Below the pieces are notes generated by a model. It made no database searches. It was not told where the DNA came from and saw only the letters and a list, made by a program, of their open reading frames with translations. A stretch of 49,640 nt of DNA from Oscillatoria sp. HE19RPO (GTDB lineage: Bacteria; Cyanobacteriota; Cyanobacteriia; Cyanobacteriales; Laspinemataceae). Of this stretch, positions 4,581 to 46,362 are shown piece by piece. The translations under genes and the position numbers were made by a program. Numbering within the stretch: the stretch's first letter is position 1; each line of letters begins with the position of its first letter. Location of the stretch: positions 1-49,640 of the forward strand of contig NZ_JAMXOT010000103.1 in NCBI RefSeq assembly GCF_024220515.1, written 5' to 3'.

Positions 4581-4711
4581 TTTGCTCACCAGAGCCCTGC
4601 ACGGGCTCAAGAGTAAAAATGATTTTTTATTACCGGATTTGGTATCAATTTCAACGCTCAAATCTTTACCTTTGAAACTGGCTTACAGGAGTTTACTTTG
4701 GCTTGTCATCC

Positions 4712-6592: not shown

Positions 6593-8464
6593 TTAAGGCG
6601 TTAGTTCTTCCACGATGATCCAATTTCCCGAGGAATTCTGACGCCCCCAAATTGTTAAGACTTGCTCATCTGGGCAGGTTTTGAGTTGACCGTCTATTTC
6701 TGCACGCCAGGTGACCAGACTCCAACTTTGACCCGCCATTTCTACCGGATGGGTCAGGGCGATCGCATAGTCCTGGAATCCCTTCTTCTGAAACACCCCG
6801 ATAAATTGTTGGCAATGATTAATGGCGTGATTGGGAATGGAGGATGGGATAGCGGTTGAAGATGTCTGGTGAATTTTAGAAAATTCTCCCGGGTTTGGCC
6901 GATCGCCACTGAGGGGATACTCCTCTGGATTTTCTAAATAAAATATCTGACAATCCAACCAGTCGCCATGTTCAGGAGTCCGATTAAACAGAGGGACCAA
7001 AGCTGCTGGGGCGATCGCATCCTGGAGTAACGCTTCTTGCAACATCCGCACCGGCAAATCCCTCGGTTGACAATGTTGTTCCACACAAAGGGCCGCTGCC
7101 ATTCCTGCCGCTTGTCCAATTCCCATCACCACAGGTTGTAGACGAGTCGCCCCATTGGCAATATGGGATACAGAAATATTTTTTTCACACACTAACAGTC
7201 CATCGGTTTCCCCAGGCACCAAACAACCATAAGGAATCGTAAAAGGCGTCCCCGTCCAACGCCCACCCCAGGGAATAGATTTCGGGGCCAGCTTAAAAGC
7301 GGGGTCGAGATGTTCTAAATCGGGGTAATGATGATCGTTGGCATAATTCCCCAAGGCGATCGCGTCGCAAACTCCTGACTCATCCACAGATAATTTAGCG
7401 ACTCGCCCCCCAAGTGCAGGCAAAATATCCGTTTCTGTCACAGTTTTCACCCCCACCAACCGCCTGCTTTCTCGATAGTACGGATGCAAAGCGTAGGCCC
7501 CACCCCCTAAAACCGAGGTTTTAGAAAAATTGCTGTTCCCTTCGACTCCTTTTATAGAGGAGGGAAAAATATCCTCGGCTAAACCATAGCGAGGCCCCAA
7601 TTCAGATTGGATAAAACGGGCAAAACTTTGGGAATGCGATCGCGCCTCTTGGAGAAACCCTAAACGTGATGCGTCCGTTTCCACCAGTCGCCCTACCCCT
7701 TCCCCATAATCATTGCCCTGAATTGGCCAATTAATCATGAAGCGATTTCCAGGCAATCTACCGTAATTGAGAAAAGACTCAGGGCCATAGTTGTCCCAAG
7801 CGCCCAAAAAGCGACTGCAATCCTCAATAGGAGGTGCAGGAATTTCCGGAGCCCTCGCCCCTTCCCCATAATCCTGCATCACCACCACCCAGGTAGGCGC
7901 TTGTACTGGATATCGTTCCGTTAACAGATTAGAGGCAACAGGGGCGCTGGGTTCCTGCCACTCCCCTTGAAATTCCCACCCCCAACGATAGGGAATTTCT
8001 GCCAATGCCAGTAAATCGCCCAATTCCGTCCCATCCAGGGTAATTTGCGCTTTGACAATAAAATCTTGAAAACAAACCCCTGCGATCGCATTGCCATCGC
8101 GCAGCACTTCCACAGGAACTTGCCCAGAAATCCAGTGCAGATTCGGCAGTTCTTTCACCCAATCTGCAAAAATTTGAGCCGCAGTGCGTGGATCAAAGGT
8201 AAAAAAACTGACCCACCCTTGATCTAATCCTGCCCCTTCACGACATTGCAGAGATTGCAGAAACTCACCCCATAAGCCTGTTTGAAAAGCAGCCAACTCA
8301 TTCCCATCGGGGGCCGAAACCCCTGCCGTGGTCAGCATTCCTCCCAACCAGGGAAATTCACTCACCAGAAGGGTTTTAGCACCGCGACGTGCGGATTGAA
8401 TTGCTGCGGCAGTCCCTCCTGTACTGCCACCGACTACTAAAACATCAGCTTGGAGTTCGTTCAT
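6593..8464 (-). CDS. FAD-dependent oxidoreductase (FAD_oxidored family)
   Basis: A flavoprotein of unknown substrate. The N-terminus MNELQADVLVVGGSTGGTAA is a dinucleotide-binding fold with a GGSTGG glycine motif, followed by a basic-acidic strand end, as in the FAD_oxidored group (flavoprotein dehydrogenases and proteins loosely annotated as xanthan lyase-like). A second conserved stretch, LLVCEKNISVSHIANGATRL with QPVVMGIGQAAGMAAALCVE following, is the C-terminal FAD-contact region of that family. A small domain of about 100 residues follows it. I chose the ATG at 8464 (623 residues); a TTG at 8479 would add five residues. No operon partner is seen. The name xanthan lyase should not be taken as functional evidence. 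Confidence 0.75.
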   Translation of the reverse strand: MNELQADVLVVGGSTGGTAAAIQSARRGAKTLLVSEFPWLGGMLTTAGVSAPDGNELAAFQTGLWGEFLQSLQCREGAGLDQGWVSFFTFDPRTAAQIFADWVKELPNLHWISGQVPVEVLRDGNAIAGVCFQDFIVKAQITLDGTELGDLLALAEIPYRWGWEFQGEWQEPSAPVASNLLTERYPVQAPTWVVVMQDYGEGARAPEIPAPPIEDCSRFLGAWDNYGPESFLNYGRLPGNRFMINWPIQGNDYGEGVGRLVETDASRLGFLQEARSHSQSFARFIQSELGPRYGLAEDIFPSSIKGVEGNSNFSKTSVLGGGAYALHPYYRESRRLVGVKTVTETDILPALGGRVAKLSVDESGVCDAIALGNYANDHHYPDLEHLDPAFKLAPKSIPWGGRWTGTPFTIPYGCLVPGETDGLLVCEKNISVSHIANGATRLQPVVMGIGQAAGMAAALCVEQHCQPRDLPVRMLQEALLQDAIAPAALVPLFNRTPEHGDWLDCQIFYLENPEEYPLSGDRPNPGEFSKIHQTSSTAIPSSIPNHAINHCQQFIGVFQKKGFQDYAIALTHPVEMAGQSWSLVTWRAEIDGQLKTCPDEQVLTIWGRQNSSGNWIIVEELTP

Positions 8465-8671
8465 AGAGATAAAGATCAAGATAGAAAGAGATTTTAGAGG
8501 GCGATCGCGTCCCAGTTATAGCATTCTGATAGGGATGCGATCGGCCAGAGAAGATCCAAATATTGCTGTCGGGGACCTTCAGGGCGATCATCGTACCTGC
8601 GGGAGTCTGAAGCCTCGTGTTAGGCTAAATTCATCTCAACTGCCCACCCCACAACCTTTCCGGAGGTCAAA

Positions 8672-8896
8672 ATGTCCACTTCAACCACCCAGAATTTAAT
8701 TGAATCTGCGATCGCCCAACTGCAACAGCTACCCCCTCAACAGCAGCAACAAGTCCTAGACTACATTGAATTTCTGGCTCAAAAATACATCGAACCTCAA
8801 ACTCCGCAACCTCGCATCCCTGGGTTACATCGAGGTAAAGTTTGGATGAGTGAAGATTTCAACGATCCGATTCCCCCCGAATATTGGAGTGAGTAA
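8672..8896 (+). CDS. DUF2281 / VapB-type antitoxin
   Basis: 74-residue antitoxin of a type II toxin-antitoxin pair, expected to bind and neutralise the PIN nuclease encoded two bases downstream and to repress the operon. The N-terminal half has the DUF2281-like pattern IAQLQQLPPQQQQQVLDYIE. The C-terminal tail (RIPGLHRGKVWMSEDFNDPI, then PPEYW) is the part that normally wraps the toxin. A GGAGGTC ribosome site precedes the ATG. A near-identical second copy lies at 9324. Confidence 0.85.
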   Translation: MSTSTTQNLIESAIAQLQQLPPQQQQQVLDYIEFLAQKYIEPQTPQPRIPGLHRGKVWMSEDFNDPIPPEYWSE

Positions 8897-8898
8897 TC

Positions 8899-9285
8899 AT
8901 GAAATTGCTGCTGGATACCCACACCTTCCTGTGGTGGACAGGTGACAGTGAAAGGCTTTCAGAACGGGTTGACAGTTTATTGGCCGACCCTAGCAACGAA
9001 TTGATTCTCAGTGTCGCCAGCGTTTGGGAGATGCAAATCAAATTGCAATTGGGGAAATTAAACGTAGAGTTGCCCTTACGGGAGTTAATCGAAACCCAAC
9101 AACAAACAAATAATCTGCAACTTCTCCCTATCCAAGTCACCCACGTTTGGGCACTGGAGAATTTGCCGATCGCCCACAAAGACCCTTTTGATAGGATTTT
9201 AATCGCTCAAGCCACGGTAGAACAGCACCCACTTCTCAGTATTGATGCTATCTTTGATGCTTATCCTGTCAATCGAGTCTGGTAG
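8899..9285 (+). CDS. PIN-domain ribonuclease toxin, VapC family
   Basis: 128-residue PIN-domain RNase, the toxin of the pair with the DUF2281 antitoxin. The acidic metal-binding residues are visible: Asp6 in LLLDTHTFLWW, Glu44 in SVWEMQIK, Asp95/Asp98 in KDPFDRIL and Asp116 in LLSIDAIFDAYPV. The DTHTFLWW start and the DPFDR motif are typical of the VapC subgroup paired with DUF2281 antitoxins in cyanobacteria. It starts two bases after the antitoxin stop. The module looks intact and functional. Confidence 0.88.
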   Translation: MKLLLDTHTFLWWTGDSERLSERVDSLLADPSNELILSVASVWEMQIKLQLGKLNVELPLRELIETQQQTNNLQLLPIQVTHVWALENLPIAHKDPFDRILIAQATVEQHPLLSIDAIFDAYPVNRVW

Positions 9286-9323
9286 GGCGGCAGTAGTCCC
9301 TCACAACCTTTCCAGAGGTCAAC

Positions 9324-9560
9324 ATGTCTACTTCAACCACCCAAAATTTAATTGAATCGGCTATCGCCCAACTTGAAAAGCTACCCCCTCAACAGCAGCA
9401 ACAAGTCTTAGATTACATTGAATTTCTGGCTCACAAATACGTCCAACCTCAACCCCCTCAACCTCGCATCCCTGGGTTACATCGAGGGATGGGGTGGATT
9501 AGCGATGATTTTAACGACCCCATTCCCCCTGAATATTGGAGTGATACCAAATCCAGGTAA
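9324..9560 (+). CDS. Second DUF2281 antitoxin copy without its toxin
   Basis: 78-residue paralogue of the antitoxin at 8672, including an almost identical ribosome-binding leader (CACAACCTTTCCAGAGGTCA). The protein matches the first copy up to PPEYWS and then diverges: the first ends in E and stop, this one in DTKSR. The changed end is encoded by ATACCAAATCC, the terminal motif of the MITE-like element at 45415, so the 3' end was replaced by an insertion. No vapC follows; only its last codons survive at 9646-9663. It may still neutralise the first toxin. Confidence 0.8.
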   Translation: MSTSTTQNLIESAIAQLEKLPPQQQQQVLDYIEFLAHKYVQPQPPQPRIPGLHRGMGWISDDFNDPIPPEYWSDTKSR

Positions 9561-9645
9561 AAGTTTTTATAGAGTAGCCTGCGTAGGCAGGCTTTGTCCG
9601 CAAGTGCCCCACCCTTTAGGGTGCGGGTTTTTATTGCAAGTAGGC
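9544..9645 (+). repeat. Truncated MITE-like element at the end of the second antitoxin
   Basis: Begins with ATACCAAATCCAGGT, matching the left end of the elements at 45415 and 46255, and contains the same internal hairpins (GCCTGCGTAGGCAGGC; CACCCTTTAGGGTGCGGG). The right terminal repeat is missing, and the sequence runs straight into the tail of a vapC gene. Confidence 0.65.
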
Positions 9646-9663
9646 GTGAATCGAGTCTGGTAG
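9646..9663 (+). pseudogene. Last codons of a deleted vapC copy
   Basis: The bases AATCGAGTCTGGTAGGG at about 9648-9664 repeat exactly the end of the vapC gene at 9271-9287 (codons for N-R-V-W and stop). Since the antitoxin upstream is also duplicated, this is best read as the scar of a second vapC whose body was lost. Confidence 0.7.
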
Positions 9664-9695
9664 GGTAAGTTAGAGTTTTTTAACAATCACCAACG

Positions 9696-10742
9696 ATGAA
9701 AGCACAGGTTTTTAGAGGCGTCAATCAACTCAGTTATGAAGACATCCCCCTGCCAGAACTCGCTTCTGATGAGGTTTTGGTACAAGTACGGGTGGTGGGG
9801 CTATGTCAATCGGATATTAAAAAAATTCGGTATCCACTCTATGAACCCCCGCGAATTTTTGGACATGAAACGGCGGGGGTCATTTCTGCGGTGGGAGAGG
9901 CGGTAACAGGATGGCAAGTTGGACAGCGGGTGGTGGTGATGCATCATATCCCCTGTATGCACTGCACTTATTGCTTGAATGAAAACTTTTCTATGTGTGA
10001 GGTTTATAAAAATATCACCACTACGGCGGGATTTGCCCCTAGTGGCGGTGGATTTGCCGAATATGTGAAGGTCCCTGGACACATTGTCCGGAATGGGGGG
10101 CTGATTCCCATTCCTGATTCTGTTACCTTTGAGCAAGCGAGTTTTGTGGAACCGACAAACTGCTGCTTAAAAGCGGTGAAAAAGGCCCGAGTGGAGCCAG
10201 GACAGACCGTGTTAATTACGGGTGCGGGTCCCATCGGACTGATGTTTGTGATGCTGGTAAAATATTTTGGTGCGAGGGCGATCGCCACGGATTTGCTCCC
10301 CTCTCGCTTAGAAAAAGCCTTGGAATTAGGGGCAGAAGCAGCGTTTGATGCTCGTAACCCAGACTTAGCCAGTCAGGTGAAAGAACAAACGGGGGGAATG
10401 GGAGTGGATACGAGTATCTTGGCAGTTCCAAGCGAAAAAGCCTTTTTCCAAGCCCTAGACTGTACCCGCAAAGGGGGGAAAATTCTATTTTTTGCCGAAT
10501 TTCCCGATGAGGTGGAAATTCCAATTAATCCCAATATTTTATATCGCCGTGAAATTGACTTGATGGGAAGCTACAGTTCCAGCTATCGAGTTCAAGGGTT
10601 AGCGACAGATATTGTCTTTAATAAAAGGATTGATGTGGATAAATTGGTGAGTGATAAATATCCACTCAAGGAATTAGCCTCTGCGGTGGAAAGAGCAGTT
10701 CAGCCGACATCGGAGACTTACAAAATTTTGCTCTATCCGTAA
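9696..10742 (+). CDS. Zinc-dependent alcohol/polyol dehydrogenase (MDR superfamily)
   Basis: Medium-chain dehydrogenase of 348 residues that oxidises an alcohol or polyol with NAD(P). Catalytic zinc ligands are Cys37 (GLCQSD), His57-Glu58 (FGHETAG) and Glu152 (VEPTNC). The structural zinc site is Cys87, Cys90, Cys93 and Cys101. The Rossmann motif GAGPIG is at 176-181, and an Asp at the end of the second strand (ATDLLPSR) favours NAD. It resembles sorbitol and threonine dehydrogenase-like proteins, but the substrate cannot be named. It appears monocistronic and is followed by a strong hairpin at 10771. Confidence 0.85.
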   Translation: MKAQVFRGVNQLSYEDIPLPELASDEVLVQVRVVGLCQSDIKKIRYPLYEPPRIFGHETAGVISAVGEAVTGWQVGQRVVVMHHIPCMHCTYCLNENFSMCEVYKNITTTAGFAPSGGGFAEYVKVPGHIVRNGGLIPIPDSVTFEQASFVEPTNCCLKAVKKARVEPGQTVLITGAGPIGLMFVMLVKYFGARAIATDLLPSRLEKALELGAEAAFDARNPDLASQVKEQTGGMGVDTSILAVPSEKAFFQALDCTRKGGKILFFAEFPDEVEIPINPNILYRREIDLMGSYSSSYRVQGLATDIVFNKRIDVDKLVSDKYPLKELASAVERAVQPTSETYKILLYP

Positions 10743-10884: not shown

Positions 10885-11688
10885 ATGTCTGCTTCTCAAA
10901 TTGCATTGACAGAACCGACGGAGATTCCCCTTCCACCCACCCAAGATGAACTGCCCTGTGATGACGGTGTACCAATGGAAACCCTGCGGCATAAACTGCA
11001 AATGGATTTATTGGTTGACCCCCTGTGGACTTGGTTGAAAGACCGGGATGCCTTTGTGGGGGGCAATATGTTTGTTTACTATAGTCTCGCCCAAGTGCGC
11101 GATCGCGATTTCAAAGGTCCTGATGTTTTCGCAGTCCTAGACGTACCTCGCGGCGAACGTAAAAGCTGGGTCCTTTGGGAAGAAGGAAAAGGGCCCGATG
11201 TGGTCATTGAGCTATTGTCCACCAGTACCGCCAAACAGGACAAAACCCAGAAAAAGCAGATTTACCAAAATCAGATGCGGGTCACCGAGTATTTTTGGTA
11301 CGACCCCTACAATCCCGAAGATTGGGCCGGGTTTGTCTTAACAAAAGGAGTCTATGAACCCTTGGCAGCAGACGAACAAGGACGGTTACTCAGCCAAAAA
11401 CTTGGATTGGCCCTTGTCCGGTGGTCCGGACAGTACCGGGATGTAGAGACTGTTTGGCTACGCTGGGCCACTTTAGACGGAGAATTACTGCCTTCTAAAG
11501 ATGAACTGGCTGAAACCGAACACCAACGGGCCGAAACCGAGCGCCAACGGGCTGAAACTGAGCGTGAACGGGCTGAAACTGAGCGTGAACGGGCTGAAAC
11601 TGAGCGTGAACGGGCTGAACGAGCCGAACAACGAGCGCAGGAGTTAGCAGAACAGTTACGGGCGATCGGTATAGAACCGAATCCATAA
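10885..11688 (+). CDS. Uma2-family (DUF820) putative endonuclease with repeat tail
   Basis: 267-residue protein of the Uma2/DUF820 family, a PD-(D/E)XK-fold group greatly expanded in cyanobacteria and often found near mobile elements; its cellular role is unknown. The core motif is GPDVVIELLSTSTAKQDKTQ with KKQIYQ after it, preceded by GPDVFAVLDVP, giving the acidic and lysine residues of the nuclease site. The C-terminal 50 residues are a charged helix of AETERQR/AETERER repeats encoded by 21-base near-tandem units at about 11508-11613, likely a coiled coil. A terminator hairpin follows. Confidence 0.85.
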   Translation: MSASQIALTEPTEIPLPPTQDELPCDDGVPMETLRHKLQMDLLVDPLWTWLKDRDAFVGGNMFVYYSLAQVRDRDFKGPDVFAVLDVPRGERKSWVLWEEGKGPDVVIELLSTSTAKQDKTQKKQIYQNQMRVTEYFWYDPYNPEDWAGFVLTKGVYEPLAADEQGRLLSQKLGLALVRWSGQYRDVETVWLRWATLDGELLPSKDELAETEHQRAETERQRAETERERAETERERAETERERAERAEQRAQELAEQLRAIGIEPNP

Positions 11689-12245: not shown

Positions 12246-15011
12246 ATGAGTCAAACGCCTCCAGTCTTACTGACCCTGCAAGAAAAAATTAAGGATCGCA
12301 CTGCTATGGTGGGGGTGGTGGGTCTGGGATATGTGGGCTTGCCTTTTGCCGTGGAAAAAGCCAAAGTGGGCTTTCGAGTGCTGGGCATTGAGCAGAACCC
12401 CAGGCGCGCTCAACAAGTCAATCAAGGGGATAATTATATTGGCGATGTCCAAGATGAAGAATTAAAACAGGTGGTCTCTAGCGGTCATTTGCAAGCCGTC
12501 TCAAGTTTTGACCGCGTGGCAGAAATGGATGTGATTGTCATCTGCGTCCCCACCCCCCTGACTAAGAATCTCACCCCGAATTTAAGTTATATCGAAAGCG
12601 TTACGGAACAAATTTCTGAGCGGCTCAGACCAGGGCAGCTTGTGACGTTGGAATCAACCACTTATCCAGGAACCACTGATGAGGTGATGCGACCTCTGCT
12701 GGAGAAAACCAGCGGTTTGCAACAGGGACAAGATTTCTTTTTGGCCCATTCTCCGGAACGGGTGGACCCTGGGAATCAGCGCTATACCACGAAGAATACG
12801 AATAAAGTGGTTGGGGCTTCTGACCCCCATTCTTTGGCGGTGGCAACCCTGTTTTATGAACAGACCATAGAAACCGTCGTGCCCGTGAGTAGTGCTAAGG
12901 CAGCAGAACTGGTGAAGGTGTTTGAGAATACCTTTCGGGCGGTGAATATTGCCTTGGTGAATGAGTTGGCGCTGTTGTGCGATCGCCTGGAGTTAAATGT
13001 TTGGGAAGTCTTAGATGCGGCGAATACTAAACCTTTTGGGATTATGCCGTTTTATCCGGGGCCTGGGGTAGGGGGACACTGTCTCGTGGGAACAGAACAG
13101 GTCCGCTATCGCTGGTATCAAGATAATGGGGTGATTGCACTAGAAGCCCTCTATCAACGAGTACAAGAACGCAGCGAGCGCGTATTTTATCATCTCGGAG
13201 GCGCTTTTCTGCGACCCGAAGGACTCGAAGTGCTCTCCATTGATTTAGAAACGGGGGAACAAGGATGGAAACCCGTTAGCTATTTATTTGCTAGAGAATA
13301 TGAGGGGACATTGGTTAAAGTCGAAACGAGCGATCGCCGTCAACTGACGGTAACCGATCGCCACCCAATGCTTGTTCATGAAGCGGATCGCTTGCAAGTT
13401 CGAGAGGCGATCGCGTTAACCCCGGGAGACATGGTTCCCCTGGTGCATCAAGCGACAGCAGATGATTTAGAGGAACCAGAGTCCATTGAAGTCATTCCCC
13501 TCTTACCCGAACAATTGGCTCAAAAAGTACGAGTCAAACATCCCCAAGGGTGGGAGGAACTCAAGGATTATCTCAAACCACTGCTTCATGAAAAAACCCG
13601 TGATGTTCTGCGCGACAACAGTCTCCCTTCAAGTACATGGAAAAAACTGCCTGACCATCTGCGCGGAAACCCTGAGCAATTCAGTCTTGTCACTGGCCGG
13701 GGTCCTTCTTTTTCTAGTTTTCCTGCGGTGATTCCAGTCAACGAAAGTCTGGCTCGATTGCTGGGGTATTATTTGAGTGAAGGCTGTATTACTGAAGAGA
13801 AAACCGGGAATTTACGGATGCGCTTTACCTTCAATCGGGATGAGCGAGAATACTTGCAAGATGTCCGCGATTTGCTGTCCGAACTGGGTTTAAGTTGTAG
13901 CGAGTACAACGACCCTCAGTGGCATTCTACAACCCTGAAAGTTAAAGGTTGGCTTCTGGCTTGGTTTTTCCGGGATATTCTCCGAACAGGAACTGATGCT
14001 TACACCATGAGAATTCCCGATCCAATTATGGCGGGGGGTGAAGCGATTCGCACGGAAGTCTTAAAAGGATTATTTCGCGGAGATGGTGATGTTCATGTCC
14101 GGTGTGGCCAGCAGACTTATCGGACAAATGGCGTAGTTCAGACCTATGAAAACAATAGCGGCACAGTAGGTTTCTTTAGTAGCAGTCCCGAATTATTTGA
14201 ACAAGTTATTTTGCTCCTGCAAGAATTAGGACTCACGCCCTATCGAAAAAAAGATAAACCTCAATTACGGTTTAAATCCCACAGGGATTTAGACCGTTTA
14301 GAAAGCTGGTTTTTAGGAGAGAAGGCGCAGAAATTGGCTCGTTTACGATTAAGTCGAAAACGTCACCTTGCGAGTAAACGGCCACAGGTGAATCAACTGT
14401 ATGCTGTCGCTCAAATTCACTCCGTGACGCCTTTTGCTGCCAAAACTCCTGTTTATAGTGTGGAAGTCGCAGAAACACATACTTTTGCCGCGACTACTGG
14501 GGTGTATGTCCATAACTGCATCCCCTTGGACCCTCATTACCTGGAATGGAAGGCCAAAGAGCATAATTTTGAGACCCATTTTATTGCTCTGGCAGGGGAA
14601 GTGAACCGGAAAATGCCGGAGTTTGTGCGCGAGAAGGTGGGGCGGGTGTTGAATCGGATTGGAAAAGCACCCTCGCGATCGCAGGTTTTGGTGATTGGGG
14701 CTGCCTATAAAAAGGATATCAGCGATTGGCGTGAGTCTCCCGCCATTGCCATTATGGAGTTGCTGTTAAAAGATGGCGTCAATCTGACTTATCATGACCC
14801 CTACGTTCCTGAGATTCAAGTCAGTGGGCATCATTTAGAATCGGTGGAACTGACTCAAGGGGCGATCGGTGATGTGGATTTAGTGATTATTGCCACCGAC
14901 CATAGCAAAATAGATTATCTTGATGTGGTGGAAAAGGCTCAGGCGGTACTCGATACCAGAGGAGTGACGCGCCATTTACGTTGCAATCAAGAAAAGGTGA
15001 CATTACTGTGA
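12246..15011 (+). CDS. wbpA: UDP-N-acetylglucosamine 6-dehydrogenase (WbpA-like) interrupted by an intein
   Basis: Nucleotide-sugar dehydrogenase expected to oxidise UDP-GlcNAc to UDP-GlcNAcA, the first step towards ManNAc3NAcA-type sugars. Residues 1-278 are the N-terminal half with the NAD motif GLGYVGLPFA and the VPTPLT segment. Residues 279-757 are an intein (annotated separately). Residues 758-921 are the C-terminal half, starting CIPLDPHYLEW and containing GAAYKKDISDWRESPA. Removing the intein leaves 442 residues, the normal length, and joins GPGVGGH to CIPLDP, restoring the catalytic cysteine motif. The enzyme should be inactive until splicing. It overlaps the wbpB start by 4 bases (GTGA). 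Confidence 0.92.
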   Translation: MSQTPPVLLTLQEKIKDRTAMVGVVGLGYVGLPFAVEKAKVGFRVLGIEQNPRRAQQVNQGDNYIGDVQDEELKQVVSSGHLQAVSSFDRVAEMDVIVICVPTPLTKNLTPNLSYIESVTEQISERLRPGQLVTLESTTYPGTTDEVMRPLLEKTSGLQQGQDFFLAHSPERVDPGNQRYTTKNTNKVVGASDPHSLAVATLFYEQTIETVVPVSSAKAAELVKVFENTFRAVNIALVNELALLCDRLELNVWEVLDAANTKPFGIMPFYPGPGVGGHCLVGTEQVRYRWYQDNGVIALEALYQRVQERSERVFYHLGGAFLRPEGLEVLSIDLETGEQGWKPVSYLFAREYEGTLVKVETSDRRQLTVTDRHPMLVHEADRLQVREAIALTPGDMVPLVHQATADDLEEPESIEVIPLLPEQLAQKVRVKHPQGWEELKDYLKPLLHEKTRDVLRDNSLPSSTWKKLPDHLRGNPEQFSLVTGRGPSFSSFPAVIPVNESLARLLGYYLSEGCITEEKTGNLRMRFTFNRDEREYLQDVRDLLSELGLSCSEYNDPQWHSTTLKVKGWLLAWFFRDILRTGTDAYTMRIPDPIMAGGEAIRTEVLKGLFRGDGDVHVRCGQQTYRTNGVVQTYENNSGTVGFFSSSPELFEQVILLLQELGLTPYRKKDKPQLRFKSHRDLDRLESWFLGEKAQKLARLRLSRKRHLASKRPQVNQLYAVAQIHSVTPFAAKTPVYSVEVAETHTFAATTGVYVHNCIPLDPHYLEWKAKEHNFETHFIALAGEVNRKMPEFVREKVGRVLNRIGKAPSRSQVLVIGAAYKKDISDWRESPAIAIMELLLKDGVNLTYHDPYVPEIQVSGHHLESVELTQGAIGDVDLVIIATDHSKIDYLDVVEKAQAVLDTRGVTRHLRCNQEKVTLL
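13080..14516 (+). other. Intein with LAGLIDADG-type homing endonuclease domain, inside wbpA
   Basis: 479-residue protein intron. It starts with Cys1 (CLVGTEQVRYRW) and ends VYVHN, with penultimate His478 and Asn479; the first extein residue after it is Cys, as required for class 1 splicing. Block B is TVTDRHPML (TxxH at intein residues 92-95), and block F is YSVEVAETHTFA. Between them lies a dodecapeptide endonuclease domain with LLGYYLSEG (227-235) and LKGLFRGDG (328-336), both keeping the acidic residue, so homing activity may be intact. The insertion point is the catalytic Cys of the host enzyme, a highly conserved site and so a favourable homing target. Confidence 0.94.
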
Positions 15012-45414: not shown

Positions 45415-45535
45415 ATACCAAATCCGGTTGTTAAAAGTCGGTTTACTCTTCAGCCCGCGCAGGCGGGCTTCGTCTGTGTAGCCCCACCCTTGAGGGTGTG
45501 GGTTTTTATAGACCTTTGACAACCGGATTCCGTAT
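45415..45535. repeat. MITE-like element, copy 1
   Basis: 121-bp unit with 16-base terminal inverted repeats, ATACCAAATCCGGTTG on the left and CAACCGGATTCCGTAT on the right (two mismatches). Inside are two hairpins: GCCCGCGCAGGCGGGC and CCACCCTTGAGGGTGTGG. It has no coding capacity. Copies: 46255-46362 (complete), 9544-9645 (right end missing), and terminal motif only at 4631-4645. Confidence 0.75.
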
Positions 45536-46254: not shown

Positions 46255-46362
46255 ATACCAAATCCGGTTGGTCTTTTAGCCCGCGCAGGCGGGCTTTGTC
46301 CTGTGAGCCTCCACCCTTGAGGGTGTGGGTTTTTATAGACCTTTAACAACTGAATTCCGTAT
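46255..46362. repeat. MITE-like element, copy 2
   Basis: 108-bp copy of the element at 45415: left end ATACCAAATCCGGTTG (identical), right end CAACTGAATTCCGTAT (four mismatches against the left-end complement), with the same two internal hairpins. It lies between the toxin pseudogene and the DUF29 gene. Confidence 0.75.

Follow-up and report, generated by a model that had tools for sequence, protein, structure and literature searches.

Adjoining genes for a DUF2281 (COG5559) protein and a PIN-domain protein have been described as VapBC-like pairs in Synechocystis 6803, where sll0205/ssl0385, sll1092/ssl2138 and slr8014/ssr8013 are among the pairs reported (PMC4963859). Another VapC/DUF2281 pair, with a gene order opposite to that of the locus described here, was toxic and was neutralised in E. 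coli (PMC12654330). The authors of that work find DUF2281 to be without significant homology to classical VapB and regard it as distinct; contrary to this view, NCBI gives the name TA_VapB to a family that matches DUF2281. Orphan toxin-antitoxin genes have likewise been catalogued in several bacteria. In Klebsiella, orphan antitoxins were counted 2253 times and come from 105 of the 233 antitoxin groups (PMC7192599), and in E. coli 176 of 290 groups were unpaired (PMC10790755); anti-addiction or remnant roles have been proposed for such orphans (PMC7192599, PMC10790755). Orphan toxins are also found, in 113 of the 169 toxin groups of E. coli (PMC10790755) and, in a marine set, as 4386 orphan toxins versus 3099 orphan antitoxins (PMC12654330). 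Finally, some MITEs have been found to change the ends of genes or to contain terminator-like sequences, the Rickettsia palindromic elements and SPRITE being reviewed examples (PMC10969869).

Orphan antitoxins have been counted in large numbers and their origin is usually guessed; the one locus examined here, in an Oscillatoria genome, displays intermediates. Specifically, five stages are found in a single genus: the pair may be intact, or present in tandem with the second toxin broken; the orphan may lie behind an intact pair and be closed by a MITE; and it may stand by itself or be followed by what is left of a toxin gene. The PF10047 and PF01850 genes adjoin in the order known from Synechocystis 6803, antitoxin first (PMC4963859), but here a third gene follows, a second antitoxin whose end comes from a transposon. 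As with the Klebsiella and E. coli orphans, this antitoxin has no neighbouring toxin and lies in what is often the context of a former pair; unlike in those surveys, the loss of the toxin can be followed through several stages and its mechanism can be seen, and the orphan stands directly behind an intact pair of the other type. Similarly, the MITE gives a gene a different C-terminus and brings with it a terminator-like hairpin, as is described in the review for the Rickettsia palindromic elements and SPRITE (PMC10969869), whereas the altered gene is in this case an antitoxin and the toxin downstream of it is gone. Orphan antitoxins, PIN/DUF2281 pairs and MITEs that alter gene ends are thus each already known, and the new elements are the visible steps of toxin loss and the existence of two coupled types; at the level of titles and abstract openings, we found no MITE-made orphan antitoxin in print.

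The vapB1-vapC1-vapB2 locus

The window, by which we mean the whole analysed stretch of 49,640 nucleotides, is contig C61 of a genome of 7.67 Mb in 511 contigs, and the features of the locus within it are given in Table 1. The intact pair (8672-9285) consists of a PIN toxin with conserved acidic residues and a VapB-family antitoxin directly upstream, the sequence hallmarks of type II VapBC, and vapB1-vapC1 is a predicted VapBC type II toxin-antitoxin pair. The acidic residues D6, E44, D95 and D98 of VapC are invariant in 8/8 aligned sequences. The AlphaFold2 model of VapC1 has a pLDDT of 94, and the nearest folds in the PDB are VapC toxins of Shigella, Salmonella, mycobacteria and Rickettsia (TM ~0.6-0.7), with 22 matches at E <= 0.001, a few of which are other PIN proteins. 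At the sequence level VapC1 matched nothing in NCBIfam at E 1 and nothing in the PDB at E 0.01. VapB1 scores 59.6 bits against the TA_VapB model NF050009, just below the cut-off of 60, while PF10047 is above its cut-off; the 78-aa VapB2 scores 54.8 bits against NF050009, again below 60. A defence-system label for the three proteins was rejected, PADLOC giving no match at E 0.01, and Rfam returned no structured RNA in 8480-9720 at gathering scores. Further along the window are two other ORFs: one at 10885-11688 has near its end an AETERERAE repeat run, which makes a coiled-coil-like tail, and one at 12246-15011, a 921-aa nucleotide-sugar dehydrogenase, appears by eye from its translation to contain an intein-like insertion (CLVGTEQV to VYVHNC).

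Table 1. Coordinates of the features of the locus in the window
Feature	Position	Strand	Basis
FAD-dependent oxidoreductase gene	6593-8479	minus	upstream neighbour
Leader before vapB1, Shine-Dalgarno-like GGAGG	8647-8670	+	24 nt at 91.7% to 9299-9322; second copy precedes vapB2
vapB1, predicted DUF2281-type VapB antitoxin, type A tail HRGKVWMSEDF	8672-8896	+	PF10047 E 8.4e-15
vapC1, predicted PIN-domain toxin, intact, type A N-terminus LWWTGDSERL	8899-9285	+	PF01850 E 1.1e-13
38-nt spacer and duplicated leader between vapC1 and vapB2	9286-9323	+	sequence
vapB2, predicted orphan antitoxin ORF, type B tail HRGMGWISDDF; end DTKSR plus stop from MITE	9324-9560	+	PF10047 E 5.9e-13
TGA, left target-site triplet of MITE, out of frame in vapB2	9542-9544	+	TNA on left in 21/21 full-length copies
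MITE copy: left terminal inverted repeat and core, without right terminal repeat	9545-9637	+	alignment with genomic copies
Terminator-like hairpin followed by five T, inside MITE core	9607-9632	+	terminator-like scan; -12.6 kcal/mol
vapC2 remnant, VNRVW plus stop	9646-9663	+	18 nt at 94% to vapC1
Native flank after lost vapC2, before adh	9664-9695	+	conserved after vapC tail in G005; with changes in G007
Zinc-type alcohol dehydrogenase (adh) gene	9696-10742		downstream neighbour; Pfam

A first-pass annotation of this DNA had proposed that the vapB leader and gene are repeated at 9324, and the alignment it called for, of the pair region with the second copy, bears this out: it recovers an ungapped vapB repeat (vapB1, 8672-8896, against vapB2, 9324-9544; 87.8% over 221 nt), the repeated leader (24 nt at 91.7%) and a vapC tail. 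The two genes part at AGTGA/TACCAAATCC; after AGTGA, vapB2 reads TACCAAATCCAGG instead of the vapB1 sequence, and its in-frame stop (DTKSR plus stop) is supplied by the first bases of the MITE. The tail of VapB2 is retained up to PPEYWS, and its predicted structure has two confident helices (2-18 and 22-40) and a low-confidence tail, with a mean pLDDT of 70. The gene is an orphan in that its antitoxin ORF is intact and the toxin gene directly downstream is absent, and it comes from a former pair in that a related genome, G005, still has the ends of vapC2 behind its second vapB.

The MITE at vapB2 and the loss of vapC2

It had also been suggested that the end of vapB2 was replaced by the terminal motif of a MITE-like element, and both the window and the genome agree with this. 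The terminal motif GATACCAAATCC occurs 4 times in the window with <=1 mismatch, the vapB2 site included, versus 0.21 expected, and a 15-base word from the left end has 22 exact copies in the genome versus 0 for a reversed control. Searching the genome with 9300-9900 gave at least 51 matches, namely the query, vapB1 and 49 on the element, and the family may exceed the matches listed because 40 of 547 first-look candidates were scored. Full-length copies were sought in 39 fetched stretches and the window as pairs of ends separated by 100-130 bp and with <=3 mismatches, each place being counted once; the 31 loose end pairs (20 with matching triplets) were reduced to 21 copies by removing overlapping and cross pairs. 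TNA stands on the left of all 21, and in 19 the right-hand triplet is identical to the left one (with TNA taken as given on either side, P about 4e-10). The element is thus short (~120 bp), has no transposase ORF, has terminal inverted repeats that begin TACCAAATCCGG, duplicates its target site and is present in many copies; the element at vapB2 is a copy of a real MITE family. This copy has the left end and the TGA, and lacks the right repeat and the right triplet. Elsewhere in the window lie two complete copies (45416-45534 and 46256-46361), each between two TGA triplets, and at 4635-4646 (minus strand) another left-end motif of this family.

The scan that gave the terminator-like hairpin found this 1 site versus 1.7 in shuffles, such sites being no rarer in shuffled sequence, and the hairpin has decayed in relatives (-3.8 in G001 and -7.2 in G002, versus -12.6 kcal/mol here). 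The fold of 9543-9670 has a z of -2.4, with 3 of 200 shuffles equally good, and folding of the whole element gives 19 predicted pairs, 3 of them with two-sided changes among 21 aligned sequences that include the vapB2 copy and the G002 copy and form a different set from the 21 full-length copies. A preference of the MITE for gene ends was considered and dropped, since the flank frames of the full-length copies have no clear pattern. From its size, its inverted repeats and the TNA on both sides, we presume a likeness to MITEs of the IS1031 group of IS5, whose 3-base TNA target duplications those found here would resemble. A search of the same genome for an autonomous partner gave no matches to PF13340 and 18 PF01609 loci, none with matching ends and triplets on both sides. 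A loose scan of the PF01609 loci and the other fetched loci, L043-L122 apart, gave 11 pairs of facing MITE ends 600-2500 bases apart, and in no pair did the two flanking TNA triplets agree. One locus among the candidates, L217, was inspected closely, and at ~829-2660 the core of a MITE of the vapB2 family is seemingly interrupted by another insertion sequence with ends GCATACGCATCAAGCTAA.

What lies beyond the MITE identifies the lost gene. The first-pass annotation had the sequence resume about 100 bases on with the last four codons of vapC; the tail is real, but it comprises about five codons and the stop (VNRVW plus stop). The tail AATCGAGTCTGGTAGGG at 9649-9665 is identical to 9271-9287, a 17-base exact match, and at <=3 mismatches it has these 2 sites only in the window, versus 0.05 expected, with no third. 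This 17-nt match is the longest between 8899-9300 and 9560-9695, and none of 2000 shuffles of 9560-9695 reached 17, the maximum being 14. A chance origin of the tail, which would have undone the reading, is rejected by both the site count and the shuffles; furthermore, native flank follows, as GGGTAAGTTAGAGTTTTTTAACAATCACC stands after the vapC2 tail of G005 as well, and a changed version of it after the single vapC of G007. Here vapC2 has lost about 370 bp.

We propose the following history. In an ancestor of this Laspinema-like genus, a chromosomal vapBC module, composed of a DUF2281-type antitoxin and a PIN-domain toxin, would have been duplicated in tandem; a MITE of ~120 bp would then have entered vapB2 at a TGA triplet right at the end of the gene, which thereby acquired its new ending (DTKSR plus stop) and a terminator-like hairpin; and a deletion, later or simultaneous, would have taken the right end of the MITE and all of vapC2 except ~18 nt. 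The duplication, the identity of the MITE, its use of the target site, its truncation on the right, the loss of vapC2 and the sharing of this state by four genomes are all borne out by sequence comparison, while the order, insertion and then deletion, is what we infer. It had been claimed that a MITE-like insertion removed the toxin; of this, the tandem duplication, the involvement of a MITE and the loss of the toxin stand, but a clean insertion as the whole cause is rejected because the vapB2 copy of the MITE has no right end and ~370 bp of vapC2 are gone, so that a deletion, and not insertion alone, removed vapC2. We consider this history of the locus very probable. VapB2 would still bind a PIN toxin through its intact tail and act as a spare antitoxin, either by increasing the dose of antitoxin relative to VapC1 or by neutralising toxins that belong to the other type, and the history and the spare antitoxin taken together are in our view a likely explanation of the whole.

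It is worth considering two other routes to the same arrangement. If vapC2 had first been lost by ordinary deletion, the MITE would be a bystander that entered the scar later, and vapC has indeed been lost without a MITE in G005, where ~4 kb of other DNA is present, and in G006, where ~17 nt of the vapC start are left. However, a late clean insertion should have produced a complete element with TGA on both sides, whereas the right terminal repeat and right triplet are missing and the core runs directly towards the vapC tail in four genomes, and we regard this route as improbable. The deletion might instead have arisen if a MITE copy at the end of vapB2 recombined with another within vapC2, for which the abundance of MITEs in the genome, already evident from the 15-base word, would provide material. 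Two complete copies would have left a MITE with a right end, and its absence here disfavours this version unless the second copy was itself truncated; recombination of this kind is very improbable. Insertion at vapB2 and deletion through the right end of the MITE remain our preferred reading.

States of the locus across the genus

It is informative to examine the locus in the genus, for which we compared 8 genomes including that of the window (G000). A contig covers the locus in 7 of these; in G004 the contig ends inside vapB, and this genome was excluded from the states. G007 has a single intact vapBC pair followed by the flank. G005 has an intact pair, then a vapB2 joined to the start of vapC2 through an intact junction without a MITE (first 51 nt, 100% identical to vapC1 of G000), then ~4 kb of other DNA, the end of vapC2 (last 67 nt, 94%) and the flank. 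The insert that replaces the middle of vapC2 in G005 (L029, 625-4606) contains ORFs that include a helix-turn-helix/NTPase-like protein, with no obvious transposase by eye. G000, G001 and G002 share the arrangement of intact pair, vapB2, right-truncated MITE and flank, with 12 more bases lost at the truncated right end in G001. In G003, a single vapB stands behind the outer leader, followed by pieces of the MITE around later-inserted transposase-like genes, the truncated right end and the flank; vapC is absent, and the arrangement fits a recombination between vapB1 and vapB2. In the same genome, adh lies in two pieces ~1.4 kb apart with a transposase-like ORF between them (C29, 38725-41174). 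Finally, G006 has a vapB, ~17 bases from the start of vapC in which ATA stands in place of ATG (at the vapB-vapC junction 24 of 28 bases agree, counted by eye), and then unrelated genes; adh was not found in the G006 genome. Beyond the genus, a Nostoc locus (L050) combines an intact vapB with a vapC whose match stops at codon 41, and a Phormidium locus (L047) that had been taken as a further loss of vapC was dropped, as it contains a run of N.

Toxin loss with the antitoxin kept has therefore taken at least three forms in the genus, and the converse, loss of the antitoxin with the toxin kept, was not seen at the vapBC locus in the 7 genomes whose contig covers it. This asymmetry is expected, because losing the antitoxin first should be lethal; in the E. 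coli and marine surveys, however, orphan toxins are numerous too (PMC10790755, PMC12654330). A strain with two full vapBC pairs, which the first-pass annotation had suggested looking for, did not turn up among the 8 genus genomes (G004 being cut by its contig end), nor did any of the 8 show a second intact copy of this vapC; in G000, the closest VapC paralogue at another place has 50% identity. The same annotation saw in the locus a snapshot of how an orphan antitoxin arises. Origin by loss of a second toxin holds good, but the event is not recent, as both the left vapB2/MITE junction and the truncated right end are common to G000, G001, G002 and G003; by this comparison, vapB2 is an old, shared orphan antitoxin.

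The distribution of these states does not follow the phylogeny of the genus in a simple way. In an rpoB tree of the 8 genomes (966 nt only for G005), G000, G001, G004 and G005 are split from the rest with a support of 0.99, G006 and G007 group at 0.96, and G000 and G005 at 0.45. Genomes that bear the MITE lie on both sides of the 0.99 split, as do the MITE-free G005 and G007; because of this conflict, recombination or replacement at the locus is needed, and vertical descent alone, judging from rpoB, is insufficient to account for the spread of the MITE state. In a population study of Laspinema, recombination is reported to be commoner within lineages than between them (PMC9500459). Within the MITE, the type of the core in G000 differs from that in G001 and G002, and the left part in G003 differs from all others; some exchange among MITE copies must therefore be assumed.

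Constraint on the orphan and two coupled types

No promoter-like site was found on the plus strand of 8480-9720. Together with the 38-nt spacer and the repeated ribosome-binding leader, this suggests an antitoxin-toxin-antitoxin operon, in which vapB2 is probably the third cistron of a vapB1-vapC1-vapB2 transcript. Across 219 nt, neither a stop nor an indel occurs in the four MITE-linked vapB2 ORFs, whereas the MITE and tail next to them have several indels; the chance of finding no stop in any of the four is 0.038 with the observed changes and 0.004 with 24 neutral changes per lineage. Pooled dN/dS is 0.39 in the four MITE-linked orphans, 0.18 in five paired vapB and 0.05 in adh of four genomes, and outside the tail (positions 1-150) it is 0.46 in the orphans and 0.27 in the paired copies. 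Selection on the orphan is weakly supported, because its non-synonymous changes, 39 observed versus 42.2 expected, are not significantly depleted (P 0.19). We read these values as relaxed but not absent constraint on vapB2, and that VapB2 is a working antitoxin under selection is a serious possibility that falls somewhat short of probable.

It is quite possible, though we would not favour it, that vapB2 is instead a functionless, decaying remnant, still open because little time has elapsed or because recombination with vapB1 repairs it. The higher dN/dS of the orphans than of the paired copies, the near-neutral number of non-synonymous changes and the exchange of a tail segment between copies are all as such a remnant would have them, and exchange with vapB1 could indeed keep vapB2 open. 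Against this stand the four copies free of stops and indels beside a MITE and tail with several, as well as the single vapB, which is open both in G003 (one of the four orphans) and in G006, neither of which has a second copy that could repair it.

The exchanged tail belongs to a wider pattern. Positions 1-150 of vapB show no grouping (0.099 within, 0.097 between), and positions 151-221 fall into two types (0.062 within, 0.168 between), a labelling that ranks first of 462, which is descriptive only because the labels were chosen after inspection of the tails. The first 60 nt of vapC also depend strongly on type (at 31-60, 0.067 within versus 0.406 between), with weaker differences at 91-120 and 271-300, and the differences between the types are mainly in vapB codons 51-65 and vapC codons 1-20. 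The pairs of G000, G001 and G007 are of type A, as is the second copy of G005 as far as it is preserved, and the pairs of G002 and G005 are of type B; in four aligned outgroups the antitoxin tails are closer to type B. The surplus antitoxin is of type B in G000 and G001, where the resident pair is A, whereas G002 and G005, the latter in its broken second copy, have a surplus antitoxin of type A and a resident pair of type B; the lone vapB of G003 and that of G006 are both of type B. Hence the surplus antitoxin is opposite in type to the resident pair in 4 of the 4 genomes that have both; as these genomes share ancestry and the probability of such a result by chance is about 1 in 8 to 1 in 16, the count is no more than suggestive.

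Recognition between VapB and VapC is described as specific in a review, which reports a link between cross-talk and the identity of the VapB C-terminus (PMC7354431). The first-pass annotation had suggested that the orphan may protect against toxin from the intact copy; given a VapB2 of type B and a resident VapC1 of type A, cross-neutralisation cannot be assumed. One can imagine two co-adapted types that are reshuffled between positions, in which an A-A-B operon, or the reverse, would provide standing immunity and allow swaps of toxin type, or survival of foreign toxins of the opposite type, without self-poisoning; we consider this unlikely. The two natural types make it directly testable whether orphans neutralise resident or foreign toxins. 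A minor observation touches on the same subject: in G006, the vapC remnant that follows a type B vapB (C8, L032 ~2064-2080) has AAATTG, the type A reading, at codons 2-3, and G006 may therefore have held a mismatched pair before its toxin was lost, a suggestion that depends on one or two bases.
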